A DNA stretch of 20,571 nt from a virus. Position numbers and translations under genes: made by a program. Of this stretch, positions 2,904 to 20,567 are shown in pieces (the first letter of the stretch is position 1; each line of letters opens with the position of its first letter). The notes under the pieces were generated by a model. The model searched no databases and was not told where the DNA came from. It saw nothing but the letters and a program-made list of their open reading frames with translations. The stretch covers positions 1-20,571 of IMG/VR virus record IMGVR_UViG_3300022929_003415; one strand, 5' to 3'.

Positions 2904-2906
2904 ACA

Positions 2907-3749: not shown

Positions 3750-3750
3750 A

Positions 3751-4140: not shown

Positions 4141-4157
4141 TTCAGCATAATTACTTG
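4134..4157 (+). promoter_or_regulatory. Perfect 9-bp hairpin over a stop codon
   Basis: CAAGTAATT at 4134-4142 pairs exactly with AATTACTTG at 4149-4157, with a 6-base loop (CAGCAT). The left arm contains the TAA stop of the 129-aa gene, and the right arm ends one base before the ATG (4159) of the 54-aa gene. No T-run follows, so it is not a classical terminator. It could reduce initiation at 4159, where I also see no Shine-Dalgarno sequence, or it could mark an RNA end. Confidence 0.5.
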
Positions 4158-4158
4158 T

Positions 4159-4323
4159 ATGACTATTACTGAATATCAATCTACAAATTGTAAAAATTGC
4201 GGACACCACAGTCATTGTGGTGAACCATTGTGGAAAGAAAACCAAGGTTATCCACAAGATGGAAACAATTTTTACAAAGCATGCGATCATTGCAGATGTG
4301 AAAAATGCACAAATGGCAAATAA
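4159..4323 (+). CDS. 54-aa Cys-rich putative zinc-binding protein
   Basis: This is a short gene encoding 54 residues beginning MTITEYQSTNCKNCGHHSHC and ending KACDHCRCEKCTNGK. The cysteine pattern is CxxC, a nearby HxxC, then CxxCxC and a final C. That is enough ligands for one or two zinc sites, which suggests a small zinc-ribbon-like fold. Similar tiny CKxCGHxxHCG proteins occur, as far as I recall, in marine T4-like phages with no assigned role. It occupies the space before the 325-aa gene, whose ATG (4313) overlaps its end, an arrangement typical of phage operons. No clear ribosome binding site is visible, and a stable hairpin sits immediately upstream, so initiation may be weak or coupled. 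Confidence 0.62.
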   Translation: MTITEYQSTNCKNCGHHSHCGEPLWKENQGYPQDGNNFYKACDHCRCEKCTNGK

Positions 4324-6693: not shown

Positions 6694-7438
6694 ATCGTTA
6701 CGCATACGTGAGCATCTTTTTCCGTATCTAATAAAAAATTATGATTGTAAAATTGTTAGTAATGCTGATAATATAGAACCAGATCGTGTTCTTGTTACCA
6801 GTGCCCCATTTGAAACGTATCTTCAAGAATCAATACGAAAACACAATTTAGACTTTTTTTACATAGACAATGGATATATAGGAAATCACAACTATAAAAA
6901 ACCTTGGTATTACAGAATAAGTTACAATCAATTGCAAAATACACGTATTGGCAAGTTCGGCAAGAGCAGAATACATACTCTTGAACTTGACGGAAGATAC
7001 GAAGACTGGAACAACGATGGCGATTACAACTTGCTTGTGATGCCATTAGCAAATAAACTGTTCACTTGGTTTAACAAAGATTACGACACATGGAGACAAG
7101 AAACTTTAGAACACTATCAAAGTCTAGATACATACTGTGTAGTTAGAGACAAACCTGGAGGAAGAGCAAGTAGGCAACAACGTTTTCGTGACATACTGCC
7201 ACTCATACGTGGAGCACGTAAGGTGATTACACATCACAGTATGGCCGCAGTAGAAGCACTATGTCTTGGTAAGCCAATTGAAATACTAGGAGAGAGTGCA
7301 GTACAACATTGGCAAAATCAAACCAATTTTGATAGACAGGAAATGTTAGAACATATAGCACACAGTCAATTTAACAGAGATGAATTTGCAGACGGTACTG
7401 CTTGGAGAGTAACAATGCAGTATCAACAAACAGAATAG
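6671..7438 (+). CDS. Putative GT-B/capsule-transferase-like protein
   Basis: This is a 255-aa soluble protein. Residues 185-205 (KVITHHSMAAVEALCLGKPI) resemble the donor-binding segment of capsular-polysaccharide transferases and GT-B enzymes. In those enzymes a His/Ser pair and a conserved Glu contact the nucleotide sugar and are followed by GxPI/V. The first half (IEPDRVLVTSAPF, DFFYIDNGYIG) would form the acceptor domain, shorter than usual. The gene starts inside the upstream GT25-type gene (23-base overlap), so it belongs to the same translational unit. It is the last gene before the hairpin cluster at 7436-7506; its TAG stop is the first triplet of that structure. Specific donor and acceptor are unknown, and the family placement is tentative. 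Confidence 0.6.
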   Translation: MKIQIPSESLRIREHLFPYLIKNYDCKIVSNADNIEPDRVLVTSAPFETYLQESIRKHNLDFFYIDNGYIGNHNYKKPWYYRISYNQLQNTRIGKFGKSRIHTLELDGRYEDWNNDGDYNLLVMPLANKLFTWFNKDYDTWRQETLEHYQSLDTYCVVRDKPGGRASRQQRFRDILPLIRGARKVITHHSMAAVEALCLGKPIEILGESAVQHWQNQTNFDRQEMLEHIAHSQFNRDEFADGTAWRVTMQYQQTE

Positions 7439-7506
7439 CCTTAGGACCGATCCAAAGGCTAGGGAGGGAACTGCCCTAGGACCAAGTTATCGCTACCCTG
7501 GTTTTT
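7436..7506 (+). terminator. Three-hairpin terminator region after the sugar cluster
   Basis: Hairpin 1 (7436-7461) pairs TAGCCTT with AAGGCTA, then after an A/A mismatch GGA with TCC, closing a CCGA tetraloop. Its first triplet is the stop codon of the upstream gene. Hairpin 2 (7459-7479) pairs CTAGGG with CCCTAG and competes with hairpin 1 for CTA. Hairpin 3 (7481-7502) is a weaker ACCA/TGGT stem followed by TTTTT at 7502-7506. TAGGACC occurs twice, at 7442 and 7477. The final stem plus T-run reads as an intrinsic terminator that separates this operon from the promoter at 7580. Confidence 0.6.
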
Positions 7507-7525
7507 AAAGTGCCATTAGTATCAA

Positions 7526-7545
7526 ACAAGTTTTTTAAGACTTGT
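7526..7545 (+). other. Short hairpin in the intergenic spacer
   Basis: ACAAGT (7526-7531) pairs with ACTTGT (7540-7545) around a T-rich loop. It lies between the terminator and the consensus promoter. It may be a back-up terminator reading in from the left, but no T-run follows the stem. Confidence 0.3.
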
Positions 7546-7579
7546 GTTGTCCATAATCTAAATACTATTAATAAAATAC

Positions 7580-7608
7580 TTGACAGTAACAAATAAATCT
7601 ACTATAAT
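7580..7608 (+). promoter_or_regulatory. Perfect sigma70 consensus promoter for the replication operon
   Basis: TTGACA at 7580-7585 and TATAAT at 7603-7608 are separated by exactly 17 bases. This is the ideal bacterial housekeeping promoter and the form expected of a phage early promoter read by unmodified host RNA polymerase. Transcription should begin near 7615, giving a very short leader that contains the AAAGGAG ribosome binding site (7618-7624). It drives the dsbA-like gene, gp43 and probably everything through 13747. Confidence 0.9.
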
Positions 7609-7631
7609 GCATTATACAAAGGAGTATTTAC

Positions 7632-7889
7632 ATGGCAACCCAATTTGACTCAGAACAAAAAGCAAAACTTACACAAATCATTAACGAAGGTATGGGTGTA
7701 ATGAGCGAAGTAGAAGCACTTAACGAAGGACTTAGTGATACAGTAAAAGCTATTGCTGAAGAACTACAGATCAAACCAAGTGTGCTTAAGAAAGCAATAC
7801 GTATTGCACACAAAGCAAGTTACACTGCAGAAAAAGAAGATCAAGAACTACTGGATGAGATTCTTACTACCGCAGGAAGGACTTTATAG
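7632..7889 (+). CDS. dsbA: DsbA-like small double-stranded DNA-binding protein
   Basis: This is an 85-aa, helical, charged protein: an N-terminal DSEQKAKLTQIINEG segment, then LSDTVKAIAEELQIKPSVLK and a basic KKAIRIAHKAS stretch. The pattern of a KAIAEEL helix, a turn with KPS, and then a basic helix suits a compact DNA-binding fold. It matches the small proteins next to gp43 in marine T4-like phages that are annotated as DsbA, the double-stranded DNA-binding protein that in T4 acts at late promoters. AAAGGAG precedes the ATG by 7 bases. It is the first gene after a perfect consensus promoter, so it should be made early and strongly. Note that this is the phage DsbA, unrelated to the disulfide oxidoreductase of the same name. 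The assignment rests on recall of the family rather than a catalytic motif. Confidence 0.65.
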   Translation: MATQFDSEQKAKLTQIINEGMGVMSEVEALNEGLSDTVKAIAEELQIKPSVLKKAIRIAHKASYTAEKEDQELLDEILTTAGRTL

Positions 7890-7892
7890 TCT

Positions 7893-10553
7893 GTGAGTTA
7901 TGTAGACGCACTATTTGATAGAGAAAAAGATCGTATACATGTTGTAGAACGTATTGATGGCAGACGAGAATATCGTGAATATCCTGCAACATACTGTTTT
8001 TACTATGCAGATCCTAGAGGCAAGTACAAAAGCATCTATGGAAACCCTGTGAGTAGATTCTCAACACGTAACAACAAAGAGTTTCGCAAGGAACTCCGTA
8101 TGCAATCTGGTAAAGATATATTTGAATCAGATATTAATCCTGTGTTTAGATGCTTCGAAGAAAACTACAAAGACCAAAACGCACCAACACTACAAACTGC
8201 ATTTTTTGATATCGAAACAGACTTTGATCCTGTACGAGGATACAGTAGTGTTGGTGATCCGTTCAATCCTGTGACTGCGATAAGTGTGTATCTACAGTGG
8301 ATGGAACAATTGGTTACATTGGTACTTCCGCCTAAGACACTGAGTTGGGATACTGCTCAAGAAATATGCAACAAGTTCCCTAACACAATGTTATTTGAAC
8401 GTGAAGAAGATCTTATTACCACATTCTTAGACTTGATTGAAGATGCAGATATCATAAGTGGATGGAATAGTGAGGGTTACGATATACCCTATCTTGTAAA
8501 CAGAACTGCAAGAATATTGAGCAAGGATGATACAAGACGTTTTTGTTTGTGGGGGCAACTGCCTAAGAAACGTACATTTGAACGTTTTGGATCAGAGAAC
8601 ATCACGTTTGATACCATCGGCAGAGTGCATATGGATTATATGCAACTGTATAGAAAGTACACATACGAAGAGCGTCACAGTTACAGTTTAGATGCTATTG
8701 GTGAACATGAACTCGATGAGAAGAAAACTGCTTATGAAGGCACACTTGATCAACTGTACAATCAAAACTTTGAAACGTTTATAGAATATTCAAGACAAGA
8801 TACTGCACTACTGGATAAATTGGATAAAAAACTGCGTTTTCTTGCATTGGCAAACGAACTAGCACATGCAAATACTGTATTGCTACAAACAACAATGGGT
8901 GCAGTTGCAGTTACAGAACAAGCGATTATCAATGAAGCACATGAACAAGGATTGGTTGTTCCAAACAGACGTGAACGACTCACTGATGAAGATACACAAG
9001 CGGCAGGTGCATATGTTGCATATCCTAAAAAAGGTATACATGAATGGATTGGTGCTATTGATATCAACAGTTTGTATCCTAGTGCTATTAGAGCACTTAA
9101 CATGGCTGGTGAAACTATTGTAGGACAACTGCGTCCTATAATGACCAATAACTATATCAAAAACAAGATGAACAACAAAGCAAGTTTTGCTATGGCTTGG
9201 GAAGGCTTGTTTGGCACCCTAGAATACACTGCGGTTATGAAACAGGAACGTGGCACAGAAATTACAGTGGACTGGGAGAACGGCGAAGAAAGTGTACACA
9301 GTGCCGCAGAGCTATGGAAACTGATATTTGATAGTAATCAGCCGTGGATATTAAGTGCTAATGGTACTATATTCACATATGAAAAAGAAGGTATTGTTCC
9401 TGGACTGCTTGCACGTTGGTATAGAGAGCGACAGGAGATACAGGCAAATCTTAGACAGGCAACCGATCCAGGTGAAATAGAGTTTTTGGACAAGCGACAG
9501 TTGGTTAAGAAGATTAACTTGAACAGTTTGTATGGTGCTATTCTCAATCCAGGTTGTAGATTCTTTGATAAACGTATCGGACAATCAACTACACTTACAG
9601 GTAGAGCAATTGCACATCACATGGATGCATTTGTTAACGAAGCAATCACTGGCAAATATGATCACATAGGTGATGCAGTAATTTATGGTGATACAGATAG
9701 TGTGTACTTCAGTGCGTATCCAATACTCAAGAAGGATATTGATGCAGGCAACATGGAGTGGAACAAAGAAATTTGTATACAACTTTATGATGCTATAAGT
9801 GATCAACTGAATGACAGTTGGCCTGCGTTTATGGAACAGGCATTTCATGTGCCAAGAGATAACGGACTTATTATCAAAGGTGGTAGAGAAAGTATTGCTG
9901 ACAGAGGGTTGTTTATCACAAAGAAACGTTATGCAATCAACATCTTTGACAACGAAGGCAAACGTTTAGATGTTGCAGGCAAACAAGGCAAGATCAAAGC
10001 AATGGGTTTGGACTTGAAACGTAGTGATACGCCTAAGGTGATACAGGACTTTTTGATGACACTATTGACAAGAGTTCTTGCTGGTGCCGAACGTCAAGAA
10101 ATAATTGATATGATTAAAGCATTCAAGATTGAGTTCAAAGAACGTCCTGCTTGGGAAAAAGGATCTCCTAAACGTGTAAACAATCTCACAATGTATAGCA
10201 AACGTGAAGAGCAAGAAGGCAGAGCAAACATGCCAGGACATGTTAGAGCTGCACTCAATTGGAACAACATGAAGAAAATGAATTCAGACAACTATAGTCA
10301 GAGTATTGTAGATGGCATGAAAACTATTGTTTGCAAACTGAAATCCAATCCACTAAACTGGACATCAATTGGCTATCCAACAGATGAGATGCATATTCCG
10401 CAATGGTTCAAAGAACTGCCTTTTGACGATGCATTAATGGAAGCAACTGTTGTGGACCAGAAGATCAGTAATCTATTAGGAGTACTTGATTGGAACCTAG
10501 CAAGCGAAACAGATACCACCAACACATTTAATACACTATTTGAGTTTGAATAA
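7893..10553 (+). CDS. 43: T4 gp43-type family B DNA polymerase
   Basis: This is the replicative DNA polymerase with 3'-5' proofreading, 886 aa against 898 in T4. Motifs in order: Exo I FFDIETDFD with D106 and E108; Exo II GWNSEGYDIPYL; Exo III YSRQDTALLDK. Polymerase motif A is DINSLYPS with catalytic D390, motif B is KKINLNSLYG at 539-548, and motif C is YGDTDSVYF with D600 and D602. All catalytic residues are present, so the enzyme should be active in synthesis and proofreading. The start is GTG at 7893, three bases after the upstream stop; AGGAAGG at 7874-7880 is a somewhat distant ribosome binding site. The C-terminal tail (FNTLFEFE) is compatible with a sliding-clamp-binding peptide, and the clamp is encoded two genes downstream. 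Confidence 0.97.
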   Translation: MSYVDALFDREKDRIHVVERIDGRREYREYPATYCFYYADPRGKYKSIYGNPVSRFSTRNNKEFRKELRMQSGKDIFESDINPVFRCFEENYKDQNAPTLQTAFFDIETDFDPVRGYSSVGDPFNPVTAISVYLQWMEQLVTLVLPPKTLSWDTAQEICNKFPNTMLFEREEDLITTFLDLIEDADIISGWNSEGYDIPYLVNRTARILSKDDTRRFCLWGQLPKKRTFERFGSENITFDTIGRVHMDYMQLYRKYTYEERHSYSLDAIGEHELDEKKTAYEGTLDQLYNQNFETFIEYSRQDTALLDKLDKKLRFLALANELAHANTVLLQTTMGAVAVTEQAIINEAHEQGLVVPNRRERLTDEDTQAAGAYVAYPKKGIHEWIGAIDINSLYPSAIRALNMAGETIVGQLRPIMTNNYIKNKMNNKASFAMAWEGLFGTLEYTAVMKQERGTEITVDWENGEESVHSAAELWKLIFDSNQPWILSANGTIFTYEKEGIVPGLLARWYRERQEIQANLRQATDPGEIEFLDKRQLVKKINLNSLYGAILNPGCRFFDKRIGQSTTLTGRAIAHHMDAFVNEAITGKYDHIGDAVIYGDTDSVYFSAYPILKKDIDAGNMEWNKEICIQLYDAISDQLNDSWPAFMEQAFHVPRDNGLIIKGGRESIADRGLFITKKRYAINIFDNEGKRLDVAGKQGKIKAMGLDLKRSDTPKVIQDFLMTLLTRVLAGAERQEIIDMIKAFKIEFKERPAWEKGSPKRVNNLTMYSKREEQEGRANMPGHVRAALNWNNMKKMNSDNYSQSIVDGMKTIVCKLKSNPLNWTSIGYPTDEMHIPQWFKELPFDDALMEATVVDQKISNLLGVLDWNLASETDTTNTFNTLFEFE

Positions 10554-11539
10554 TGAAATTACAAGATCTACTAATATATCGTAATCAACTTCAAGATATA
10601 ATCAATGGTGATAAAAATATTCAAGCACTGTTGTTTGCACATCTAAATAAGTTTAACAAAACTGTTAACAGTTCAAATTTTGACACAAATAATCTTAAGC
10701 ACGACATGTTCAAAAATCAAGCAGAAATCTTGGAAAATTTAAAGGATCTGTACAGTAATCTAAATACCATGTATGATAGTTTAGAATTACAAATAACAGA
10801 TTTAGAACAAAATTATATAATCAAAAGTGAAAAAATTTACAAAGATGACCTTGAAAAACCTTATCAATTAAAAGACAACGAATATGAAAATTTGCCTTTA
10901 TTCGGAAAACCTGGTTATATTGAGGATGCAGGGCATGACTCAAATAAAAAGTTTGTTGGAACCTTACTGAAATATACGGATTTCAAATGGCCTGGCTTAG
11001 AGCTTGGACCAGCAAAAGGAGATTTGACAAAAAAAATAGTTGCTCTTGATCCTTTATATATTGCTGATACAGACATTAATAAGTTTAAACATGTACAGAA
11101 ATTATGGAATGATATATACCAAAAGAGATTGAGATATTATGTGCTAGATGATAGTGTAGAAGATCCTATGCATCAGTTACCAAAAGATCAATTTGGATTT
11201 ATTGTTGCATGTGATTGGTTTAATTTCAAACCACAAGATGTAGTACAAAGATATCTACAATCTGCCTTTGGGTTATTACGTCCTGGAGGTGCAATACTTT
11301 TTACCTACAACAACTGTTGTTATCCAAAAGCAGTTGACAAAGTAGAAGAAATGTACTACACTTATATAAATGGGAACACACTTAAAAAGCACTGTGAATC
11401 TATTGGTTTTAAAATAATTTCTGAATACAACGGCGAAAAAGAAGCAGATTGGTGTGCAAGTTGGTTAGAATTACAAAGACCTGGAGAACTAACAAGCCTG
11501 AGAGGTGGACAAAACCTTGCTGAAATTAACAAATTATAA
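10553..11539 (+). CDS. Coiled-coil plus SAM-dependent methyltransferase protein
   Basis: This is a 328-aa protein in two parts. Residues ~1-100 are helical, Asn/Leu-rich and likely coiled coil (LENLKDLYSNLNTMYDSLEL). Residues ~145-290 look like a class I methyltransferase: motif I LELGPAKGD at 149-157, an acidic residue after the next strand (IADTDINKF), FIVACDWFNF as the motif IV region, and LLRPGGAILFTYNN as the motif V/VI region typical of SAM methyltransferases. The substrate is unknown; IVACDWF is not the NPPY or PCQ motif of common DNA base methylases. The start overlaps the gp43 stop by one base. Its position between polymerase and clamp, where T4 has regA and clamp-loader genes, is unusual and could point to a DNA- or nucleotide-related role. 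Confidence 0.7.
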   Translation: MKLQDLLIYRNQLQDIINGDKNIQALLFAHLNKFNKTVNSSNFDTNNLKHDMFKNQAEILENLKDLYSNLNTMYDSLELQITDLEQNYIIKSEKIYKDDLEKPYQLKDNEYENLPLFGKPGYIEDAGHDSNKKFVGTLLKYTDFKWPGLELGPAKGDLTKKIVALDPLYIADTDINKFKHVQKLWNDIYQKRLRYYVLDDSVEDPMHQLPKDQFGFIVACDWFNFKPQDVVQRYLQSAFGLLRPGGAILFTYNNCCYPKAVDKVEEMYYTYINGNTLKKHCESIGFKIISEYNGEKEADWCASWLELQRPGELTSLRGGQNLAEINKL

Positions 11540-11554
11540 ACTTGGAGATAAAGA

Positions 11555-12286
11555 ATGAGAGACTACTTATTAGACTTAGTTGAACACAGCTATGATTTAG
11601 GTTGCATTGATCTAATTAAAATTACAGGAACAGATACTACAACCGCAGTTGATGGACTTGCAGAAGACAAGAGTGTTGTGTTACAAGCAAAGTTTCATAG
11701 TCCAGTTGCAGATTACATTGGTACATTTGGTATGCCTAACTTGGCAAAACTAAAGATACTACTTAACATTGGCGAGTACAAAGAAAACGCAGAAATAAGT
11801 GTTAAGAGACAAGAACGTAATGGTGAAAATGCTCCTGTTGGACTGCACTTTAAAAACGCCGCTGGTGACTTTAAGAATGACTATAGATTTATGGTTAGTG
11901 AGATTGTAAACGAAAAGCTCAAAGGCGTAAAAATGAAAGATGTGCCATGGGATATAGAATTTGAGCCAACAACTGCAAGCATCATGAGATTGAAAATGCA
12001 AGCACAGGCAAATGCTGAAGAAACAACATTTCAAACCAAAACAGAAGATGGACATTTAAAGTTCTTGTTTGGTGATCATAGTACACACGCAGGTGACTTT
12101 GTGTTTCAGCATGACGTTGGTGGCAAACTTACTAAAGCATGGAGTTGGCCTGTACAACAGTTCATAGCAATTATGAACTTAACTGGAGATAAAACTGTGA
12201 GAATATCAGATAGTGGTGCAACTAAGATTACTGTTGATTCGGGCATTGCAGTTTACAATTACATTCTTCCAGCACAAAGCAAATAG
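11555..12286 (+). CDS. 45: T4 gp45-type sliding clamp
   Basis: This is the processivity clamp of the phage replisome, which in T4 forms a trimeric ring that holds gp43 on DNA and also activates late transcription. The 243-aa product has the gp45 hallmarks: a short helical start, an alternating beta pattern, QAKFHSPVADYIGTFGMPNL in the first domain, KFLFGDHSTHAGDF in the second, and the C-terminal WPVQQFIAIMNLTGDKTVRI with a final IAVYNYILP strand. Length is slightly above T4 gp45 (228 aa). The start has a clear GGAGA at 11544-11548, six bases upstream. The downstream gene begins immediately at the base after the stop. No clamp-loader genes (44, 62) are seen in this window. Confidence 0.9.
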   Translation: MRDYLLDLVEHSYDLGCIDLIKITGTDTTTAVDGLAEDKSVVLQAKFHSPVADYIGTFGMPNLAKLKILLNIGEYKENAEISVKRQERNGENAPVGLHFKNAAGDFKNDYRFMVSEIVNEKLKGVKMKDVPWDIEFEPTTASIMRLKMQAQANAEETTFQTKTEDGHLKFLFGDHSTHAGDFVFQHDVGGKLTKAWSWPVQQFIAIMNLTGDKTVRISDSGATKITVDSGIAVYNYILPAQSK

Positions 12287-13747
12287 ATGATTGAACAGGA
12301 TAACCTAACACTAAAACAGAAAGACTATGCAGTATTTTTGCCTGCAATCAGCAGTTTCTATGCTGGTTACATTGGCAAGGAACGTTTTCCTGCAGGTGAC
12401 AAGAACAAGATAATTGGTGATAGGTTGCCTAAAGGTATTCCTAATATGGAGGCTATGAACTGGCTGAACAGTAAAGAAAGTTTATTTCCTTACAAGTACA
12501 GTTTGTACAGTGCTGGACATGCCAACATGGACCTAAGTGTCACAGTGCCTAAAGAAGATATGGTTCGCAACAGAGAAGCAGACACTATCATGCTTGCTGA
12601 CTCAGGTGGATTCCAAATTGCTAAAGGTGTATGGCCAGGTGCTTGGGCTGATCCTAAAGACAAGGCTTGTGAAAAGAAACGTGAACAGGTTATTGCATGG
12701 CAAATGGGCATAGCAACACATGGTATGACCATGGATATTCCTACATGGACGTACCTGGATAAAGAAGCAAGTGAAGCATGTGGAATTAAAAGTTACAAAG
12801 ATGCAGTTGATGCTACATTGTTCAACAATGAATTTTGGATGAAGAGTAGAGGTGGCGATCTGAAGATACTAAACGTGCTACAAGGAAGTAACCACACAGA
12901 AGCAGACTCATGGTACGATACTATGAAGAAGTTTTGTTCAGACAAGTATGATCGACCATTTGATGGTTGGGGCATGGGTGGACAGAACATGTGTGATGTA
13001 CACTTGGTATTGAAACGTTTGGTTACACTAATACATGAAGGTTTGTTGGAAAAAGGCCAACATGACTGGATGCACTTTTTAGGCACTAGCAAACTAGAGT
13101 GGGCATGTTTGTTAACTGACGTGCAACGTAGTGTACGTCGTCATGCGAATGCAAACTTTACTATTAGTTTTGATTGTGCGTCGCCATTCCTTGCAACTGC
13201 TAACGGACAAGTGTATACCAACCTGCGTACCGAAGACAGAGGTAAGTGGAGTTACATGATGGAAGCCACTGCTGATGATAAAAAATATGCACATGGTACA
13301 GACAGTTTTCGTGACGTAGTGCTACGTGATGGTATTCATGAAAAGTTTGAAGACTCTCCAATAAGTTCAAGACTTACTATTGGAGATATTTGCTACTATG
13401 CACCCGGCGACCTAAATAAGATTGGTAAAGAAGGCAAAACTTCATGGGATAGTTTTAGTTATGCACTGCTTATGGGACACAATGTATGGCAACACATAAG
13501 AGCAGTACAAGAGGCAAACGTAAGATATGATCAAGGTATACTTCCTGGAATGCTTGTACATGAAACATTTGAACGTAAACTGTTTAGAGATGTAGTTGAA
13601 CAGATATTTGAAAAACGTGACTATGACAAAAGTATGCAAGTAATTGAAGACAATAGTAAGTTTTGGGATAGTATTATAGGTACTAGAGGATTTACTGGCA
13701 AGAAAATTGTAAACAGTGCAAGTCAATTTAATGCATTGTTTAATTGA
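12287..13747 (+). CDS. dpdA: TGT/DpdA-like DNA 7-deazaguanine transglycosylase
   Basis: This is a 486-aa member of the tRNA-guanine transglycosylase superfamily, and in a phage replication operon it is best read as DpdA. DpdA exchanges guanine in DNA for a 7-deazaguanine base such as preQ0. Visible motifs: LADSGGFQI at 103-111, where D105 matches the conserved Asp near the TGT active site; GMGGQN, with G231-G232-Q233 matching the substrate-binding GG loop; and ISFDCASP with D296 as the likely nucleophile. GHNVWQHIRAV near the C-terminus matches the TGT His/helix region. I do not see the CxCxxC zinc motif of tRNA-acting bacterial TGTs, which fits a diverged DNA-acting enzyme. It starts directly after gp45. 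Its stop TGA lies within the -35 hexamer of the next promoter. Confidence is high for the superfamily and moderate for DNA as substrate. Confidence 0.82.
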   Translation: MIEQDNLTLKQKDYAVFLPAISSFYAGYIGKERFPAGDKNKIIGDRLPKGIPNMEAMNWLNSKESLFPYKYSLYSAGHANMDLSVTVPKEDMVRNREADTIMLADSGGFQIAKGVWPGAWADPKDKACEKKREQVIAWQMGIATHGMTMDIPTWTYLDKEASEACGIKSYKDAVDATLFNNEFWMKSRGGDLKILNVLQGSNHTEADSWYDTMKKFCSDKYDRPFDGWGMGGQNMCDVHLVLKRLVTLIHEGLLEKGQHDWMHFLGTSKLEWACLLTDVQRSVRRHANANFTISFDCASPFLATANGQVYTNLRTEDRGKWSYMMEATADDKKYAHGTDSFRDVVLRDGIHEKFEDSPISSRLTIGDICYYAPGDLNKIGKEGKTSWDSFSYALLMGHNVWQHIRAVQEANVRYDQGILPGMLVHETFERKLFRDVVEQIFEKRDYDKSMQVIEDNSKFWDSIIGTRGFTGKKIVNSASQFNALFN

Positions 13748-13772
13748 CACCAAACACAAATTGTTGTATAAT
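13744..13772 (+). promoter_or_regulatory. Second perfect sigma70 consensus promoter
   Basis: TTGACA at 13744-13749 and TATAAT at 13767-13772, spaced 17 bases. The -35 box overlaps the stop codon of the DpdA-like gene. Transcription is expected near 13779, just upstream of AAAGG (13781-13785) and ATG 13792. This rules out the earlier in-frame TTG at 13744 as a start for transcripts from this promoter. It makes the 13792-15818 genes an independently transcribed early unit. Confidence 0.88.
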
Positions 13773-13791
13773 AAAAAGAAAAAGGCAAGCA

Positions 13792-14298
13792 ATGGAAAGA
13801 CCTGATCACGAAAACGTACAATGGTTTATAGGTACAGAAGTTGAACATACTCCTGCATTTGGAATGAAGACACTGTTTGTTGTTGGTATACAAGATGTTG
13901 TTGCTATCAAAGAAGCATATGAAAAGCATGGTTGTGAACACATATTCTTTGGTGCTAACCATACATATGATCCTAAAGATGACGATGAGCATTATGAATG
14001 GACATTCATGATCATGCCATTTCTGAGAGAAAACATATGGTGCACACTAGATATTCCTGCATCTCAGTTTGAGCACTTTCATGAAGAAGGTTACTGCGAA
14101 TACAATACTTTTATTCCACAGTTGAGAGTTGGTATTCCTTTTATCAAACACTGGAATTATAACACAATGTTGAAGATTGATGACATTGATTTTGATGCAA
14201 CAAATCCTGGTGTATGGACACATAGTTTACACAAACTTATGGACAGGAGAAAATTTACTCCTTGGACAGATTATGCAAAAGATGAGGTAATAAAATGA
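13792..14298 (+). CDS. Conserved phage protein of unknown function in the deazaguanine cluster
   Basis: This is a 168-aa soluble protein starting MERPDHENVQWFIGTEVEHT. I recall relatives in marine T4-like phages, always without an assigned function. Seen in the sequence: an alternating strand/helix pattern (TLFVVGIQDVVAIKEAYEKH, then HIFFGANHTYD), several His and Asp residues that could bind metal, and a highly patterned end with KIDDIDFDATNPGVW and FTPWTDYAKD. It has no radical-SAM CxxxCxxC, so it is not an obvious QueE. It is the first gene after a perfect promoter and overlaps the QueD-like gene by four bases (ATGA). This suggests a role in the same modification pathway, but that is only context. 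ATG 13792 is chosen over an upstream in-frame TTG because of the promoter and AAAGG. Confidence 0.78.
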   Translation: MERPDHENVQWFIGTEVEHTPAFGMKTLFVVGIQDVVAIKEAYEKHGCEHIFFGANHTYDPKDDDEHYEWTFMIMPFLRENIWCTLDIPASQFEHFHEEGYCEYNTFIPQLRVGIPFIKHWNYNTMLKIDDIDFDATNPGVWTHSLHKLMDRRKFTPWTDYAKDEVIK

Positions 14299-14705
14299 TA
14301 CAAGAAGAACGTGAAGCAATTGAAAGTGCAAAAGACAAAGCACGTAGACAGATTTGGGTTACATTTAAAAAAGAAGGCATACACAAGTATCCAGCCGCAC
14401 TTGATGATCCAAAACTAGCAACTGGTGATGAGTATGATGTAAGTTTCTTAGGCTATCCTCATAGACATATATTTCACTTTCGTGTTGCAATTGACGTATT
14501 CCATAATGACAGAGACATTGAGTTTATACAGTTCAAACGTTGGTTGGAAAATCTCTACAAAGAAGACATACTCAACTTGGATTACAAAAGTTGTGAAATG
14601 ATAGCAGATGATATCTACACTCAAGTGGCTGCTAAATACCCAGGAAGGGCAGTAACTATTGAAGTCAGTGAAGATGGAGAGAATGGTTGTTGCATAAGCT
14701 ACTAG
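14295..14705 (+). CDS. QueD/PTPS-like T-fold protein (atypical)
   Basis: This is a 136-aa protein with the outline of the 6-carboxytetrahydropterin synthase (QueD) family, the second step from FolE product toward preQ0. HRHIFHF at 56-62 corresponds to the HGH zinc-ligand strand, and IEFIQFKRWLE at 75-85 to the VxDFxxLK element. SCEMIADDI at 99-107 corresponds to the PTxEN helix, and VTIEVSEDGENG at 120-131 to the C-terminal strand ending in the pterin-anchoring Glu (E126). What is missing is the catalytic Cys a few residues before the HxH, and the LDH motif. It may therefore be a diverged enzyme with altered chemistry. Context supports the call: folE and a DpdA-like gene lie in the same window. 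RBS GAGG is at 14284-14287, and the start overlaps the upstream gene (ATGA). Confidence 0.5.
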   Translation: MIQEEREAIESAKDKARRQIWVTFKKEGIHKYPAALDDPKLATGDEYDVSFLGYPHRHIFHFRVAIDVFHNDRDIEFIQFKRWLENLYKEDILNLDYKSCEMIADDIYTQVAAKYPGRAVTIEVSEDGENGCCISY

Positions 14706-14706
14706 T

Positions 14707-14982
14707 ATGGAGACATTTTTATTATGCTTGCTAATCTTATTAATTACGGTCTTGGCAATGAGTATAGGCCTCCTAAGAGGCCGACGTGTAAGCGGCAGTT
14801 GCGGTGGTGCATCAGGCGAGTGCTCTGTATGTGGCAAAGACAATGCAAAAGACCGCCTACAACAGATGAAACGAGATCCTAATCGCAGGATTGACAGTGA
14901 CAACATGACTGAAGTTGAAAAAATGGATCGAGGGTTCACTCACGGCACATATAATATTAACGGAAGAGATGTAGACTTCTAA
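14707..14982 (+). CDS. NqrM-like small membrane protein
   Basis: This is a 91-aa protein with one N-terminal transmembrane segment (ETFLLCLLILLITVLAMSIG, residues 2-21), then basic LLRGRRVSGSCGG and GECSVCGKD. The order of membrane helix, GRR, SGSCGG and CxxC closely matches NqrM (DUF539). NqrM is the iron-delivery/maturation factor for the Na+-translocating NADH:quinone oxidoreductase. It has four cysteines: C7 in the helix, C32, C39 and C42. The polar tail (residues ~45-91, ending in NINGRDVDF) is phage-specific. It would sit in the inner membrane with the Cys cluster exposed. It lies between the QueD-like and methyltransferase genes, one base after the former and overlapping the latter by one base. 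I see no clear Shine-Dalgarno, so translation may be coupled. The homology is from motif recall. Confidence 0.62.
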   Translation: METFLLCLLILLITVLAMSIGLLRGRRVSGSCGGASGECSVCGKDNAKDRLQQMKRDPNRRIDSDNMTEVEKMDRGFTHGTYNINGRDVDF

Positions 14983-15818
14983 TGCTTGACAAGATATTAC
15001 AAACATTCACTGAAAACGACACTAGACCAAAACATAATCCCATATATTATATGGGAAAAAGTATAACTAACCCACAAGTAAATAAAAAAATTTATACTGG
15101 TTTATTGCCACCTAACATTTTAAAAAATAAAACTGTATTAGACTTTGGCCCTTGGATCTTTCTTTCAGGTGCATGGAGTTTGTATCACGGTGCAAAGCAT
15201 GTGACAGGTGTAGAATATGATAAAGAAAATTATATTACAGGTAAACAATGTATGAATACTTTTTATACTGAAAACTGGCAACTTGAAAATACACTTATAG
15301 AAAAGTTTATAGCAAACAACGATCAAAAATATGATGTTATACTAATAGCAGGTACTATACATAAACTTTCTGATAAAACTGCTTTCTTGGAATGGTGTGT
15401 TGACCACAGTGATTATGTAATAATAGACGGCAACTACCCTCCTCTTTGGCATTATCTACTAGATGTTCCAAGATGGTGGAAAGACAGAGAACATAAAATA
15501 TTTCAACATATATATTCCGCACAAGATAAAGAGATGGTGAATAATATACTTGCGTCACCAGAATATGGAGTATGGTTTAGTCAATTTATACAAGATAAGT
15601 TACCGTTATACCAACATAGTGTTAACACTGGACACAAGATTACCTCTCTAGGTCAAGGTGCAAAAACAACATATACTAGTCCAAACTATTATGAGTACTT
15701 TTTTAAGTACAACGGATGGCAATCTCAAAGTATTCACAGTGATTATCTAACAGAACATGTGCCAGATTACTATACATTTCCAAGAAGATATTGTCTAGCC
15801 TATAAAAAGGTTGCCTAA
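14982..15818 (+). CDS. SAM-dependent methyltransferase-like protein
   Basis: This is a 278-aa soluble protein with a class I methyltransferase core. After an N-terminal stretch, TVLDFGPWIFLSGAW (51-65) is motif I, in the variant DFGP rather than DxGxGxG. HVTGVEYDKENY follows, where the acidic E after the strand would bind the SAM ribose. KYDVILIAGTIHKL is the motif IV region. The C-terminal half (PPLWHYLLDVPRWW, YYEYFFKYNGWQ) is aromatic-rich and unfamiliar, so the substrate is unknown. It is distinct from the methyltransferase beside gp43, which has a coiled-coil N-terminus. It is the last gene of the unit begun at 13744. The start overlaps the upstream stop (TAATG). Confidence 0.65.
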   Translation: MLDKILQTFTENDTRPKHNPIYYMGKSITNPQVNKKIYTGLLPPNILKNKTVLDFGPWIFLSGAWSLYHGAKHVTGVEYDKENYITGKQCMNTFYTENWQLENTLIEKFIANNDQKYDVILIAGTIHKLSDKTAFLEWCVDHSDYVIIDGNYPPLWHYLLDVPRWWKDREHKIFQHIYSAQDKEMVNNILASPEYGVWFSQFIQDKLPLYQHSVNTGHKITSLGQGAKTTYTSPNYYEYFFKYNGWQSQSIHSDYLTEHVPDYYTFPRRYCLAYKKVA

Positions 15819-15822
15819 CTAG

Positions 15823-15851
15823 TTGACAACCGCCTAAAGTACTATTATAAT
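15823..15851 (+). promoter_or_regulatory. Third perfect sigma70 consensus promoter
   Basis: TTGACA at 15823-15828 and TATAAT at 15846-15851 with a 17-base spacer, immediately after the methyltransferase stop. Transcription should start near 15858. The leader carries AAAGGAG at 15865-15871, five bases before the ATG at 15877, a strong ribosome binding site. It drives the GT-B gene and possibly the genes beyond. Confidence 0.9.
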
Positions 15852-15876
15852 TAATACATATTTTAAAGGAGATAGA

Positions 15877-17070
15877 ATGCGTAAACTTTTCTACATGGGT
15901 CTTGAATCTTATGAAGCACGTTATACACTACAGTTAACTGAATGGAACCGACGTGTATTTGAACGTAGAGGAATTGATGTTGTATATGTTCCTGGCACAA
16001 CTATAGATGATACAAAAAGTATTTCAGTTGGGCAAGTTCTTGATGCACATGGAAGAAGTTACTTTGGTATGAGCCAGATTATGAATCTAGTACAGATGAT
16101 GCGTAATGGTGAATGTACTGGAGAAGATGTTATTTACTTTGAAGATATGTTTCAGCCGGGTATCGAAAGTCTTCCATACATAATGGATCAGATTCCAGAT
16201 GCCCAACGACCCCGAGTGTATGTACGCTGTCTTGCCCAAGCAATTGATCCAGATGATTTTGTACATGTGTGGGGTATGTCCAAGTGGATGGGCCTATATG
16301 AGAAAATGGTATGTGAGTTTGCCACAGTCTTGGCTACTAATGAAGAAATGGTAGCACACATGAAGATTGCTGGTTGGGAGTCACCTATATACAATATCTC
16401 AGGCTTGGCATTTGGCAAAGCAGAAGTTCAAGAAAGGTTGGGCGAACGGATAAAGCCTTTCAATGAACGTGCTAACAGGATTTGCTTTAGTGCAAGATTT
16501 GATCAAGAGAAACAACCAGACTTCTTTATGGATCTTGTAGAACGTTATAGTGAGCAACACCCAGGGTCTCAAACGTTTGCAATACTACAAGGTGGTCCAT
16601 TGCGTAGTAATAATGAAAAATATATAACCCGTGCAAGAGAATTACAAGCACGTGGCATACTAGAAATACATGAAAATTTGCAAAAGCATGAATACTACAA
16701 AATACTCAACGACAGTAAAGTGTTGTTTAACTGTGCTTTGCAAGACTGGGTAAGCAACACAGTCAGTGAAGCAGATGCACTGGGTTGTAATGTCCTGTAT
16801 CCAGCATACAGAAGTTTTCCAGAAACTTTTGCAAATGATCCAAACAGATTGTATGTGCCTTGGAGTATTGATGATGTTGAAGTAAAACTAGGAAACTTGT
16901 TAAAAGAAGCACATCACAACATGGGTCTTATTAGTGATTGGACAAATGGTACCATTGACAGAGTAGTTGACATCATGCAAGGCAAAGGCGAGCAATGGTT
17001 ACGTACAGGTAATAGGTACAGAGATCATGTTGCTGGTGCAAAATATCAGGTGGTAAAAATTGAAAACTAG
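15877..17070 (+). CDS. GT-B (GT4-like) glycosyltransferase
   Basis: This is a 397-aa soluble protein with the two-domain GT-B layout. The first half contains VIYFEDMFQPGIES and VYVRCLAQAIDP, and its domain ends near residue 195. The donor domain begins with RICFSARFDQEKQPDFF (201-217), the usual strand plus (K/R)QP element, and AILQGGPL follows. LQKHEYYKILNDSKVLFNCA leads to NTVSEADALGCNVLYP at 294-309, where E298 is in the position of the conserved Glu of the EX7E-type motif that contacts the nucleotide sugar. The length is normal for GT4 enzymes. The acceptor is unknown. It stands first in a unit with an epimerase, implying UDP-hexose chemistry. It has a strong promoter and ribosome binding site. 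Confidence 0.75.
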   Translation: MRKLFYMGLESYEARYTLQLTEWNRRVFERRGIDVVYVPGTTIDDTKSISVGQVLDAHGRSYFGMSQIMNLVQMMRNGECTGEDVIYFEDMFQPGIESLPYIMDQIPDAQRPRVYVRCLAQAIDPDDFVHVWGMSKWMGLYEKMVCEFATVLATNEEMVAHMKIAGWESPIYNISGLAFGKAEVQERLGERIKPFNERANRICFSARFDQEKQPDFFMDLVERYSEQHPGSQTFAILQGGPLRSNNEKYITRARELQARGILEIHENLQKHEYYKILNDSKVLFNCALQDWVSNTVSEADALGCNVLYPAYRSFPETFANDPNRLYVPWSIDDVEVKLGNLLKEAHHNMGLISDWTNGTIDRVVDIMQGKGEQWLRTGNRYRDHVAGAKYQVVKIEN

Positions 17071-17086
17071 TGAATATGTTTTACTC

Positions 17087-17130
17087 TATATAGTTGTGAT
17101 AACAATTATATACTCTAGTGTGGGTATAAT
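17087..17130 (+). promoter_or_regulatory. Candidate regulated promoter: AT-rich dyad plus TATAAT
   Basis: An 11-bp inverted repeat (17087-17112) runs TATATAGTTGT, loop GATA, ACAATTATATA, with one G/T wobble. It is followed by TATAAT at 17125-17130, just before GGAG (17134-17137) and the galE-like ATG. No -35 hexamer is found at 16-18 bases upstream; the dyad occupies that place. This suits either an activator/repressor-controlled promoter or an RNA hairpin between two cotranscribed genes. Confidence 0.45.
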
Positions 17131-17145
17131 GATGGAGAAGTTCTC

Positions 17146-18099
17146 ATGAAAACAGTTGCAATAACTGGCGGTGCTGGTTACATAGGTGGACAAACCGCAA
17201 TCTATTTTAAAGAACAAGGTTGGGAGGTTACTGTTATCGATCGCAATCCTGTTCCAGATAGACTCGGTGAGTTTGTCGATTATTTTATACACGACGACTT
17301 TGAGAGCAAACAAACACTTGGACAACTACACTATACCGATGTAATTGTACACTGTGCTGGTAGCAGTTTGGTTGGTCCAAGCATTAAAGATCCAAGCAAC
17401 TATTTTGAAAACAATTTTGTTGCTACAAAACGCATGCTAGATTACATTGTTGGCATGAAGTTACATCCTCGGATTGTTTTTTCAAGTAGCGCCGCAGTAT
17501 ATGGCAATCCATTGATGACACCAATTTCAGAAGAAGATCCAAAAAATCCAATATCACCATATGGACTAAGCAAACTAATGGTTGAACAGATGCTTGAAGC
17601 ATATGGTGTTGCATACAATCTAGACTATGTTGGATTACGTTATTTCAATGCAGCTGGTGCAGATCCTAAAGGAAGACATGGACAAGAAAAATCTGCTACA
17701 CATATAATTGCAAGAGTAATGGAAGCAATAAAAGAACAAAAACAGTTCACACTCAATGGCACAGGCTTAACAACTGAGGATGGAACCTGTGTAAGAGACT
17801 ACGTACATGTACACGATATTGCAAAAGCACACTTTTATTGCACAGAACCAAGAGTAGGTACTGGATTTTACAATTTAAGTACAGGAATGGGAGCAAGTAA
17901 CTTAGAAATACTGCGAAAGTGTTGTGCAGTAAGTGGCAGTAAACCTAGTACTGTTGTAGAAGGACCAGGTAGACCAGGCGACCCAGATACGTTAGTAGCA
18001 AGTAATAAAAAGTTCTATGAAACATGCCAATGGCAAAACGAATATCATGTTGACGACATTGTAGAACATGCATGGAATTGGTATAATCGTGGGCTTTGA
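17146..18099 (+). CDS. galE: UDP-glucose 4-epimerase-type SDR protein
   Basis: This is a 317-aa extended short-chain dehydrogenase. The N-terminal TGGAGYIG (7-14) is the NAD-binding glycine motif, and VIDRN follows the second strand. VFSSSAAVYGNP supplies the catalytic Ser/Thr region, and Y139xxxK143 (YGLSK) is the catalytic pair. LRYFNAAGADP and CVRDYVHVHDIAKAH are characteristic of UDP-glucose/UDP-galactose 4-epimerases. The protein is about 20 residues shorter than E. coli GalE. It would interconvert UDP-hexoses for the neighbouring glycosyltransferase. All catalytic residues are present. GGAG stands eight bases before the ATG. The end overlaps the next gene's likely start. The exact sugar specificity is not fixed by these motifs. 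Confidence 0.85.
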   Translation: MKTVAITGGAGYIGGQTAIYFKEQGWEVTVIDRNPVPDRLGEFVDYFIHDDFESKQTLGQLHYTDVIVHCAGSSLVGPSIKDPSNYFENNFVATKRMLDYIVGMKLHPRIVFSSSAAVYGNPLMTPISEEDPKNPISPYGLSKLMVEQMLEAYGVAYNLDYVGLRYFNAAGADPKGRHGQEKSATHIIARVMEAIKEQKQFTLNGTGLTTEDGTCVRDYVHVHDIAKAHFYCTEPRVGTGFYNLSTGMGASNLEILRKCCAVSGSKPSTVVEGPGRPGDPDTLVASNKKFYETCQWQNEYHVDDIVEHAWNWYNRGL

Positions 18100-18682
18100 G
18101 AAGTTTAAAGAATTTGAACAAGCACTCGGTGAGTATACTGGTGCACCTCACGTTGTGTTAACTGATTGTTGTACTCATGCAGTTGAATTGTGTTTGAGAC
18201 TAAAAGGTATTGGCATAGCAACTATACCTTATAGAAGTTATCTTTCCATTCCAATGACATTTCACAAACTTGGTATAGAATATCATCTTGACACTGAAGT
18301 TGAATGGGAATATGAATATCGTATTGGACTCACAACTATTTGGGATAGTGCTAGACTTCTGCAACCTGGCATGGCTAGAGCAGGACAAATGCAATGTTTG
18401 AGTTTTGGTCATACCAAAACATTAGAAATTGGTCATGGTGGTGCTATACTCACAAGCAACAAAGATGACGCAGAGAAACTAAGAAAAATGGCATATGATG
18501 GAAGAGACCTAAGTGTGTCTCCTTGGCAAGATCAGAAAACTTTTCATGTTGGATACCATTACAAACCCAGCATAGAAGATTGCGAGAAGGGATTGTACAT
18601 GCTCGCCAATAACCAACTGAAACCCAAACAATCTCAACTGGTAAAATATCCTGACTTAACAAAGATAGAAATAGTCGATTGA
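18089..18682 (+). CDS. Half-length DegT/DnrJ-type aminotransferase-like protein
   Basis: The product is 197 aa from GTG 18089, or 204 from the alternative ATG 18068. Both starts lie inside the galE-like gene and neither has a good ribosome binding site. It resembles the PLP-binding half of DegT/DnrJ/EryC1/StrS sugar aminotransferases. VLTDCCTHAVELCLRLKG matches the N-terminal phosphate-binding region. IWDSARLLQP stands where the PLP-ring Asp lies. CLSFGHTKTLEIGHGGAIL contains the candidate Schiff-base lysine K110 in the SFxxxK context, with HGG replacing the usual GEGG. Normal family members are ~370 aa; here the C-terminal domain is nearly absent. The ending (KYPDLTKIEIVD) looks natural, and a similar short form is known to me from marine phages, so it is probably a real reduced protein rather than a fragment. 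Activity is uncertain. Confidence 0.7.
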   Translation: MGFEKFKEFEQALGEYTGAPHVVLTDCCTHAVELCLRLKGIGIATIPYRSYLSIPMTFHKLGIEYHLDTEVEWEYEYRIGLTTIWDSARLLQPGMARAGQMQCLSFGHTKTLEIGHGGAILTSNKDDAEKLRKMAYDGRDLSVSPWQDQKTFHVGYHYKPSIEDCEKGLYMLANNQLKPKQSQLVKYPDLTKIEIVD

Positions 18683-18683
18683 C

Positions 18684-18712
18684 TTGACCAGTGGTATAAA
18701 TAATCGTACAAT
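18684..18712 (+). promoter_or_regulatory. Overlapping sigma70-like and T4-late-like promoter signals upstream of folE
   Basis: TTGACC (18684-18689) and TACAAT (18707-18712) are separated by 17 bases; each matches five of six consensus positions. Inside the spacer is TATAAATA (18695-18702), the exact T4 late promoter octamer. The folE unit could therefore be read early by host polymerase and again late with phage factors. A chance match of the octamer in AT-rich DNA is possible. Confidence 0.55.
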
Positions 18713-18727
18713 AAGTTTAACTATTGT
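18708..18727 (+). other. Small inverted repeat in the folE leader
   Basis: ACAATA (18708-18713) pairs with TATTGT (18722-18727) around an 8-base loop. It overlaps the proposed -10 hexamer, so it could be an operator or a leader hairpin. No T-run follows. Confidence 0.3.
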
Positions 18728-18760
18728 GGTCATCCTCGACCCAAACTCGGAGAATCCTAA

Positions 18761-19447
18761 ATGACAATTTCCAATATAATTACACAAAGAATTAAAAAAG
18801 CCAAAAAAAGATACTGGGCTGGTGACAACATCAGTGGTTATCTACACGATGGCGACAAAGAAGCATTGATAGAAGAACTTACTGAAAAGTTCAATGGTGT
18901 GCTTGACAGTTTGATCATCGACAGAGAAAACGACCCAAACTCACACGGCACAGGCAAACGCCTTGCTAAAATGTATATCAATGAATTAATGGCTGGAAGA
19001 TACAATCCTATGCCAAATGCAACCAGTTTTCCTAATCATCTTGAAGACAGATATGATGGCATGTTGGTGGTTCGCAGTGAACTAAAAAGCATGTGTTCTC
19101 ATCATCACCAGCCTGTTACAGGAACTGCTTATATTGGAATACTGGCGGCAGATCATCTAATAGGATTAAGCAAATACACAAGAATTGCACAATGGTGTGC
19201 AAGAAGAGGTACATTGCAAGAAGAACTTGCAATGGACATAGCCAGAGAAATAATGAAAGCAACTGACAGCAATGACGTTGGTGTTTATATTCAAGCAACA
19301 CATGGTTGTTGTGAAAATAGAGGCATAATGGCACACAGTAGTCTTACACAGACAACTGTACTCAAAGGTGCTTTCAAAACTGACTCTGGCACAAAAAAAG
19401 AGTTCATGGACAATATTAAGTTGCAACAAGAATATAGTCCACGATAA
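18761..19447 (+). CDS. folE: GTP cyclohydrolase I (FolE)
   Basis: This enzyme converts GTP to 7,8-dihydroneopterin triphosphate, the first step toward folate and toward preQ0/queuosine-type 7-deazaguanines. The 228-aa product has the zinc site: C112 and H115 in MCSHHHQPV, and C183 in ATHGCCENRG. These correspond to E. coli C110, H113 and C181. The RG after the last Cys is the usual substrate loop. DHLIGLSKYTRIAQWCARR matches the conserved oligomer helix. The N-terminus is longer and more basic than usual (QRIKKAKKRYWAG). GGAGA at 18749-18753 precedes the ATG by seven bases. The folate use is possible, but a QueD-like gene and a DpdA-like gene in the same window favour DNA modification. The BMP-family gene follows after 52 bases. 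Confidence 0.93.
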   Translation: MTISNIITQRIKKAKKRYWAGDNISGYLHDGDKEALIEELTEKFNGVLDSLIIDRENDPNSHGTGKRLAKMYINELMAGRYNPMPNATSFPNHLEDRYDGMLVVRSELKSMCSHHHQPVTGTAYIGILAADHLIGLSKYTRIAQWCARRGTLQEELAMDIAREIMKATDSNDVGVYIQATHGCCENRGIMAHSSLTQTTVLKGAFKTDSGTKKEFMDNIKLQQEYSPR

Positions 19448-19499: not shown

Positions 19500-20567
19500 A
19501 TGAACGTTCTAAAACTATTGGCAGTACTTCTGTCAGTGATGTTTTTCAGTGTTGCACATGCTGGAGACAAAATCAAAGTAGGTTTTATCTATGTTGGACC
19601 AATTGGTGACCATGGATGGACCTACAGACACGACATCGGAAGATTGGATGTTGAAAAGCACTTTGGAGACAAAGTGGAAACTGTATATTTGGAAAATGTA
19701 AAATATGGTCCTGATAGTGAAAGAGCTATTAGAGCTATGGCAAAATCAGGAGCAGATATTATATTTGCAACAAGTTTTGGTTACATGGAGCCTATGCTTA
19801 AGGTTGCTAAAGAATTTCCAAATGTTAAGTTTGAACATGCAACAGGTTACAAGCAAAGTAAAAATATGGCAACTTATGGTTTGAGATTATACCAAGCAAG
19901 ACATGTACAAGGTGTTATTGCTGGATTAATGACCAAAACTAATAAAATTTGTTACGTTGGTGCATTTCCAATACCAGAAGTTATTCGTGAAATCAACACC
20001 TACTACTTAGGTGCTAAAACTGTTAATCCAGATGTTGACATTGACATAGTATGGGTAAACACATGGTATGATCCGGGTAAAGAAGCACAGGCTGCAGACG
20101 TTATGATTGCTGAAGGTTGTGATATGGTTGCACAACATACTGATTCACCAGCACCATTACAGACTGCAGAAAAAGCAGGTGTACTTGGTTTTGGTCAAGC
20201 TAGTGATCAGTACAAGTTTGCTCCTAAAGCTCAGTTAACTGCAACAATTGATAACTGGTCACCTTACTACATTAGTAAAGTACAAGCAGTAATTGATGGT
20301 AACTGGAAAACAGGTGATTACTTTGGACACATGAATGAAGACGTTGTGCAAATGGCTCCGTTTACAAACATGCCAGACAAAGTAAAAGCATTTGCTCAAA
20401 AGATCAAAGATGATATTAAGAATGGAAAATATTTTGCATTCACTGGTCCTATCAAAGACAACACAGGAAAGATTCAGTTAAAAGCTGGAGAAATTGCTGA
20501 TGATGCACATCTTAACAGCATGATGTACTATGTTGAAGGTATTGACGCTAAAGTACCAGGAAACTAA
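19500..20567 (+). CDS. BMP-family ABC transporter substrate-binding protein (PnrA/BmpA type)
   Basis: This is a 355-aa periplasmic binding protein. Residues 1-21 form a Sec signal peptide: basic start, hydrophobic core LLAVLLSVMFF, cleavage after AHA. No lipobox cysteine follows, so it should be free in a Gram-negative periplasm. KVGFIYVGPIGDHGWTYRHD is the typical BMP N-terminus. GADIIFATSFGYMEPM and CDMVAQHTDSPAPLQTAEKA are typical core segments, and the length fits the family. Characterised members bind purine nucleosides such as guanosine, inosine and adenosine; others in Proteobacteria may bind different ligands. It is complete, with AAGGA six bases before the ATG, and follows folE in the same direction. 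No permease or ATPase gene is present, so it would have to work with the host transporter. It was probably acquired from a host. Confidence 0.85.
   Translation: MNVLKLLAVLLSVMFFSVAHAGDKIKVGFIYVGPIGDHGWTYRHDIGRLDVEKHFGDKVETVYLENVKYGPDSERAIRAMAKSGADIIFATSFGYMEPMLKVAKEFPNVKFEHATGYKQSKNMATYGLRLYQARHVQGVIAGLMTKTNKICYVGAFPIPEVIREINTYYLGAKTVNPDVDIDIVWVNTWYDPGKEAQAADVMIAEGCDMVAQHTDSPAPLQTAEKAGVLGFGQASDQYKFAPKAQLTATIDNWSPYYISKVQAVIDGNWKTGDYFGHMNEDVVQMAPFTNMPDKVKAFAQKIKDDIKNGKYFAFTGPIKDNTGKIQLKAGEIADDAHLNSMMYYVEGIDAKVPGN

Follow-up and report, generated by a model that had tools for sequence, protein, structure and literature searches.

The window analysed here is the whole of IMG/VR record IMGVR_UViG_3300022929_003415 (20,571 bases), a viral contig carrying a run of genes that we read as part of a pathway for modifying phage DNA with a 7-deazaguanine. 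Between a family B DNA polymerase and a GTP cyclohydrolase I (FolE), all on one strand, lie genes for a 486-aa transglycosylase-like protein, a QueD-fold protein that we call QL, a glycosyltransferase, an epimerase and an aminotransferase (Table 1). No nucleotide match to the window was found among 50,697 phage records. IMG/VR contigs as long as 343 kb encode homologues of the 486-aa protein, and so do the jumbo phages Vibrio phage 2.275.O, Sinorhizobium phage Phosso and the PA5oct-like Pseudomonas phages. Judged by these relatives, the window is a piece of the genome of a giant marine-type phage. Relatives in database listings are the best 80, which form one lineage, and those described as having room are the ones whose contig extends far enough to show the gene in question.

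Table 1. Features of the putative modification locus, in window coordinates.
Position	Strand	Feature	Evidence
7580..7608	+	perfect sigma-70-type promoter, TTGACA-N17-TATAAT, before a small gene, polymerase, methyltransferase-like gene, clamp and dpdA	
7893..10553	+	family B DNA polymerase	PF00136 E=1e-35; synteny
10553..11539	+	methyltransferase-like protein, in the polymerase/clamp interval in closer relatives	weak PF13489
11555..12286	+	gene at the sliding-clamp position	Phosso gene at homologous position annotated DNA polymerase III sliding clamp beta
12287..13747	+	DpdA-like DNA-guanine transglycosylase (predicted; TGT fold), divergent subfamily, 486 aa	AlphaFold (AF2) model, Foldseek, hhalign
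13744..13772	+	perfect sigma-70-type promoter, TTGACA-N17-TATAAT, overlapping the dpdA stop codon, before the 184-aa/QL unit	
13792..14298	+	184-aa open reading frame (168 aa counted from the ATG); protein confined to this kind of cluster	50/50 relatives
14295..14705	+	QL, QueD-fold paralogue, 136 aa, candidate enzyme acting on a QueD/QueE-branch product	model, fold search, residues
14707..14982	+	91-aa protein, closest relatives only	conservation
14982..15818	+	methyltransferase-like protein, few relatives	weak matches
15823..15851	+	perfect sigma-70-type promoter, TTGACA-N17-TATAAT, before the glycosyltransferase	
15877..17070	+	glycosyltransferase, GT-B, Glycos_transf_1; predicted DNA-base glycosyltransferase	PF00534; cluster restriction
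17146..18099	+	NAD-dependent nucleotide-sugar epimerase/dehydratase	PF01370 E=5e-49
18068..18682	+	short DegT/DnrJ/EryC1-type sugar aminotransferase, short form conserved	PF01041 E=3e-14
18684..18712	+	near-consensus promoter, 10/12 match, before folE	
18761..19447	+	GTP cyclohydrolase I (FolE), 228 aa, complete active site	PF01227 E=4e-39, 134 bits; residues

The 486-aa protein matched no model in Pfam (including that for tRNA-guanine transglycosylase, TGT), NCBIfam or PADLOC and nothing significant in PHROGs, so its homology was drawn from structure and profiles. An AlphaFold model with 29 relatives as input (pLDDT 87, pTM 0.88) adopted the TIM-barrel TGT fold. All 50 PDB matches listed by Foldseek were tRNA-guanine transglycosylases (best E=4e-6, probability 1.0), and viral structure matches included the 2.275.O protein and the DpdA2 of Vibrio phage nt-1 (the latter at E=3e-9). 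BLAST detected no similarity to nt-1 DpdA2. Profile comparisons aligned the family with a four-member DpdA2 set (hhalign, E=5e-6) and with E. coli TGT (E=0.002). These E-values from remote comparisons are modest, and the assignment depends on fold, motifs and context all pointing the same way. In the alignment with E. coli TGT, the DSGGFQ, QG, GG-loop and FDCxxP motifs all correspond, with the D296 region falling on FDCV. Residues D105, D150, Q199-G200, G231-G232 and D296 were invariant in the 29 aligned relatives, which bears out the TGT/DpdA-like enzyme with D105, GG loop and D296 proposed in an earlier, sequence-only reading of this DNA. The CxCxxC zinc site of TGTs was incomplete, and only C369 and H398 were invariant in that region. 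On the model and profiles, the protein is a remote TGT/DpdA-type transglycosylase. It is best read as a new DpdA subfamily and putative inserter of a 7-deazaguanine that would later be glycosylated. Similarity to DpdA2 showed in profiles and structure but not in BLAST. In the search for DpdA3/DpdA4-type relatives, which covered Firehammervirus CP220, neither the profile nor an open reading frame scan found a homologue. A 695-aa CP220 protein considered as a DpdA3 candidate was rejected, having neither a TGT motif nor a profile match.

All 79 relatives with room had the clamp gene upstream of dpdA, at a median distance of 4 nt, which upholds the proposed tie between the DpdA-like gene and the replication genes. 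From this fixed place behind the clamp and the link to DpdA2, we infer DNA, not tRNA, as the predicted substrate. Three perfect sigma-70-type sites were observed in the window, all in gaps between genes, against 0.03 expected per strand. Sites matching at 11 or more of 12 positions also occurred upstream of the 184-aa gene (14/51), the glycosyltransferase (9/24) and folE (10/25) in relatives, compared with a background of 20/1600; none preceded dpdA (0/58) or QL (0/45). The three transcription units described earlier therefore stand as a consensus-based prediction, with two refinements: QL shares a unit with the preceding 184-aa gene, and the site before folE agrees with the consensus at just 10 of 12 positions. 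T4 late promoters (TATAAATA) were also considered and rejected, as shuffled sequences gave more matches than the window.

QL had no Pfam match, and PADLOC, NCBIfam and PHROGs were uninformative, the sole assignment being phrog_17812, of unknown function. Its model (pLDDT 93) found E. coli QueD as best PDB match (TM 0.6-0.7). QL keeps the zinc-binding His triad of QueD and the pterin-anchoring C-terminal Glu (H30, H56, H58, E126), whereas the catalytic Cys27 (Leu instead) and Asp70-His71 are missing in nine of nine diverse members. Because these catalytic residues are gone and a separate protein scoring as PTPS/QueD (also with the NCBIfam QueD model) was present in all 11 related genomes searched, QL is, on residues and gene content, a QueD paralogue and not the QueD of the pathway. 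The QueD-like label given earlier thus holds for fold and zinc ligands, but not for the pathway step attached to it. We also considered whether the relatives' QueD (STKTYGH type) is itself the odd paralogue; its Cys, Asp-His pair and Glu are intact, although most copies have changes at two of the zinc histidines. PA5oct encodes a classical QueD alongside a variant QueD and QL, and any of these T-fold proteins might be a decarboxylase.

QL was present in 50 of 50 relatives with room. The 184-aa gene that precedes it occurred, among phage records, only in PA5oct-like phages and ACP17, whose copy adjoins DpdA2; PADLOC, NCBIfam and PHROGs returned nothing useful for its product. For QL, a DpdL-like role as 7-carboxy-7-deazaguanine decarboxylase is a reasonable guess, since both dCDG and dDG have reportedly been found in phage DNA, DpdL being the name given to that activity.

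The genes of the base pathway begin with FolE, which matches the zinc ligands and GTP-binding residues of the E. coli enzyme (C111, H113, H114, S136, K137, R140, Q152, E153, H180, C182 and R186, E. coli numbering from Met1). It is the bona fide FolE claimed earlier, and a divergent, non-catalytic T-fold protein was rejected, as all active-site residues are conserved. QueE and QueC are both absent from the window, as the sequence-only reading had stated. QueE was found in 11 of 13 relatives searched. Measured from the start of dpdA, the median distance in relatives is 8.6 kb for QueD and 10.3 kb for QueE; the window stops at 8.3 kb, so that reading saw neither.

QueC was absent from PA5oct, Phosso, ACP17, RHph_I1_18, BUCT-ZZ01, Bakedbeans, Ahp1 and phiST (some recorded as complete), gave only a sub-cut-off match in X1, and was not found above cut-off in 10 large IMG/VR relatives of the window or in any of 80 further QL loci. 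Conversely, the three phages in which QueC was present (2.275.O, nt-1 and CP220) gave no QL match. QL therefore appears to mark a QueC-free branch in phages. Since the QL-bearing phage genomes tested lack QueC, the phage-made product is predicted to be 7-carboxy-7-deazaguanine or a derivative, not the preQ0 suggested earlier.

Two constant members of the cluster had been passed over by the sequence-only reading, namely the 184-aa gene and the glycosyltransferase. The latter was downstream of QL in 31 of 31 relatives with room and in the window is followed by the epimerase, the short aminotransferase and FolE. When IMG/VR was searched with the glycosyltransferase, 77 of the best 80 loci contained QL; in the other three the contig starts at most 1.2 kb upstream of the glycosyltransferase, and FolE and QueD are still there. 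Its sole homologue among the 50,697 phage records (69% identity) is in cyanophage BUCT-ZZ01 and starts 0 nt after QL, within a same-strand run of QueE, XGPRT, a hypothetical protein, QueD, FolE, a second glycosyltransferase, DpdA2, QL and the glycosyltransferase. In other subclades its place is taken by a second type, typified by PA5oct gp167. PA5oct-like phages, including Paride, carry dpdA, QL and this glycosyltransferase; the 167-173 kb region of PA5oct also holds QueE, FolE and the classical and variant QueD, nearly all annotated as hypothetical protein. Beyond them the gp167 type occurs in Phosso, ACP17 and X1, all with QL, and in four Xanthomonas/Erwinia phages without a QL match. By these distributions the glycosyltransferase is locked to this kind of cluster, and its recurrence across separate lineages and different DpdA subfamilies makes a sugar step outside the pathway hard to accept. 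Upstream of the polymerase, positions 4217-7438 hold a run of sugar-related genes, partly kept in relatives, with one clear GT25 (PF01755 E=2.5e-16); these may supply sugars or modify glycans.

On Magnetospirillum contigs of up to 1.4 Mb, glycosyltransferase, QL and dpdA genes overlap and are followed by QueD; compared with the proteins of the window and PA5oct, the transglycosylase shows 30% identity and the glycosyltransferase 38%. In Vibrio phage 2.275.O the transglycosylase homologue is followed, after one gene, by QueF, a COG1738 transporter, QueC and FolE, a neighbourhood that ties the transglycosylase family to 7-deazaguanine chemistry.

Taken together, the cluster very probably swaps guanines in phage DNA for a predicted 7-deazaguanine. 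We favour, at a probability of roughly 55%, the reading that the window holds the 5' portion of a cluster with which a jumbo phage modifies bases in its DNA after replication, the 7-deazaguanine being inserted and then glycosylated. FolE in the window, with a QueD and a QueE presumably encoded just outside the contig, as in relatives, would yield 7-carboxy-7-deazaguanine. QL probably converts this base, or a precursor of it, further, decarboxylation being one option. The DpdA-like enzyme, cotranscribed with polymerase and clamp, would then put the resulting 7-deazaguanine into DNA in place of guanine by a TGT mechanism, with D296 as putative nucleophile, D105 as acid/base and D150 in base recognition. 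Finally, the glycosyltransferase would attach a sugar, which the epimerase and aminotransferase would help to supply, and the product may protect the DNA from host nucleases. A sugar-decorated 7-deazaguanine is not known to have been described in DNA. More broadly, we put at even odds that this is an undescribed class of DNA hypermodification by glycosylated 7-deazaguanine, its conserved glycosyltransferase-QL-DpdA module having spread among jumbo phages, cyanophages, Acidovorax/Xanthomonas phages and Magnetospirillum, while DpdA subfamilies and glycosyltransferase families, at least two of each, were exchanged within it.

Several observations count against a glycosylated product of a QueC-free pathway. 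Hosts may supply QueC, and the Magnetospirillum genome carrying the operon does encode it. Phage 2.275.O has QueC and QueF without a QL match, so the transglycosylase subfamily would be usable with preQ0 or preQ1. In Phosso, dpdA lies far from QL. In Streptomyces sp. NEAU-Y11, QL stands beside QueD, FolE, a deaminase and an FAD oxidoreductase (two identical copies, stretch positions 5968-9611), which may be a 7-deazapurine or pterin metabolite cluster. The presence of several sugar genes at 4217-7438 hints that glycans are made for other ends, and conservation across the 80 relatives partly reflects simple descent.

The most serious alternative dispenses with the sugar: the base in DNA would be 7-carboxy-7-deazaguanine or, with QL as decarboxylase, plain 7-deazaguanine, and the glycosyltransferase would serve another purpose. 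FolE, QueD and QueE without QueC do predict the carboxylated base, the corresponding nucleosides, dCDG and dDG, have reportedly been found in phages, and no glycosyltransferase was seen next to the QL of phiST, Bakedbeans, Ahp1 and RHph_I1_18. We nevertheless hold this account unlikely, as glycosyltransferases of two types accompany QL and DpdA in jumbo phages, the cyanophage, ACP17/X1 and Magnetospirillum, several of them in one operon. Insertion of preQ0 (or preQ1), to which the sequence-only reading pointed, with QueC supplied by the host would accommodate the 2.275.O neighbourhood, and many hosts encode QueC; it is improbable given that QueC was absent from all QL-bearing phage genomes tested and that QL would be left unexplained. 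Less probable still is a tRNA-acting TGT variant altering host or phage tRNA during infection. The TGT fold would suit it, and further genes for tRNA modification are found in jumbo phages, TilS of MIJ3 being one (PMC6892783), but the missing Pfam TGT match, the incomplete zinc site, the fixed place beside clamp and polymerase and the detectable profile link to DpdA2 all argue otherwise. That FolE and QL serve folate or pterin metabolism next to an unrelated transglycosylase-like gene can be dismissed almost entirely, for although FolE is common to folate synthesis and the Streptomyces QL adjoins QueD and FolE, the linkage of dpdA, QL, FolE, QueD and QueE is strict across phages.

Among known systems, the proposed glycosylated 7-deazaguanine pathway resembles that of phage nt-1 (FolE-QueD-QueE-QueC-DpdA2), whose DNA contains dPreQ0 (PMC6884629). 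Both have a phage TGT-fold enzyme with corresponding catalytic motifs together with FolE, QueD and QueE, and DpdA2 also occurs in the QL clusters of ACP17, X1 and BUCT-ZZ01. The two differ in that the enzymes are linked at profile level only, and in that the QL-bearing phage genomes tested lack QueC and have in addition QL, the glycosyltransferase and the 184-aa protein. Phages said to carry dCDG or dDG share a modification ending at QueE, with QL a candidate for the same kind of step as DpdL; a glycosyltransferase linkage is not known to belong to that system. CP220, whose complete dADG replacement is attributed to DpdA3, likewise has, close to polymerase and clamp, FolE and 7-deazaguanine genes of the QueC type, but possesses QueC and lacks the window enzyme by profile. 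Bacterial and archaeal TGTs (PF01702) share fold and motifs, whereas the window family (486-596 aa) escapes their Pfam model and has an incomplete zinc site and a different C-terminus. T4-type DNA glucosyltransferases, compared by description only, are alike in proposed function, adding sugar to a modified base after synthesis, but act on a different base; the families here are GT4-like in Pfam.

If true, this reading would extend the list of known DNA bases by a purine analogue that bears a sugar and give a function to hundreds of jumbo-phage hypothetical proteins, including those of PA5oct, MIJ3, Callisto and Paride, which kills dormant cells. It would also predict how these nucleus-less giant phages evade restriction and Cas nucleases. 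The literature on these four phages makes no mention of deazaguanine. PA5oct and Paride, as cultured relatives, make the predicted chemistry testable, and if the reading holds, the compact Magnetospirillum operon could carry the modification into E. coli K-12 DNA for study.

Further observations concern other loci, outside the window and within it. In 2.275.O (stretch positions 5905-12931) the gene after the transglycosylase is amidoligase-like (PF12224 just under cut-off) and an Ntn-type amidotransferase lies between QueC and FolE; this cluster may make an amide-linked 7-deazaguanine. Magnetospirillum and Rhodospirillaceae contigs share the order glycosyltransferase-QL-dpdA then QueD (one at stretch positions 4823-8905), with a tyrosine-recombinase-like gene near two of them, and the operon could be a bacterial DNA-modification island or a prophage. 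An Altiarchaeales-binned contig (stretch positions 2608-7331) encodes a glycosyltransferase and QL. Its 785-aa protein, which has a DSGAHTF motif and a part resembling a terminase small subunit, may represent a third type of transglycosylase in an archaeal virus. Within the window, folE is followed at 19500-20567 by a Bmp/PnrA-like nucleoside-binding ABC-transporter lipoprotein (PF02608 E=1e-54), an unusual phage-borne uptake gene kept in close relatives. At the contig edge (2-442) lies a Dps/ferritin-like protein (PF00210 E=3e-19); in CP220 a Dps-like gene adjoins the clamp and FolE.

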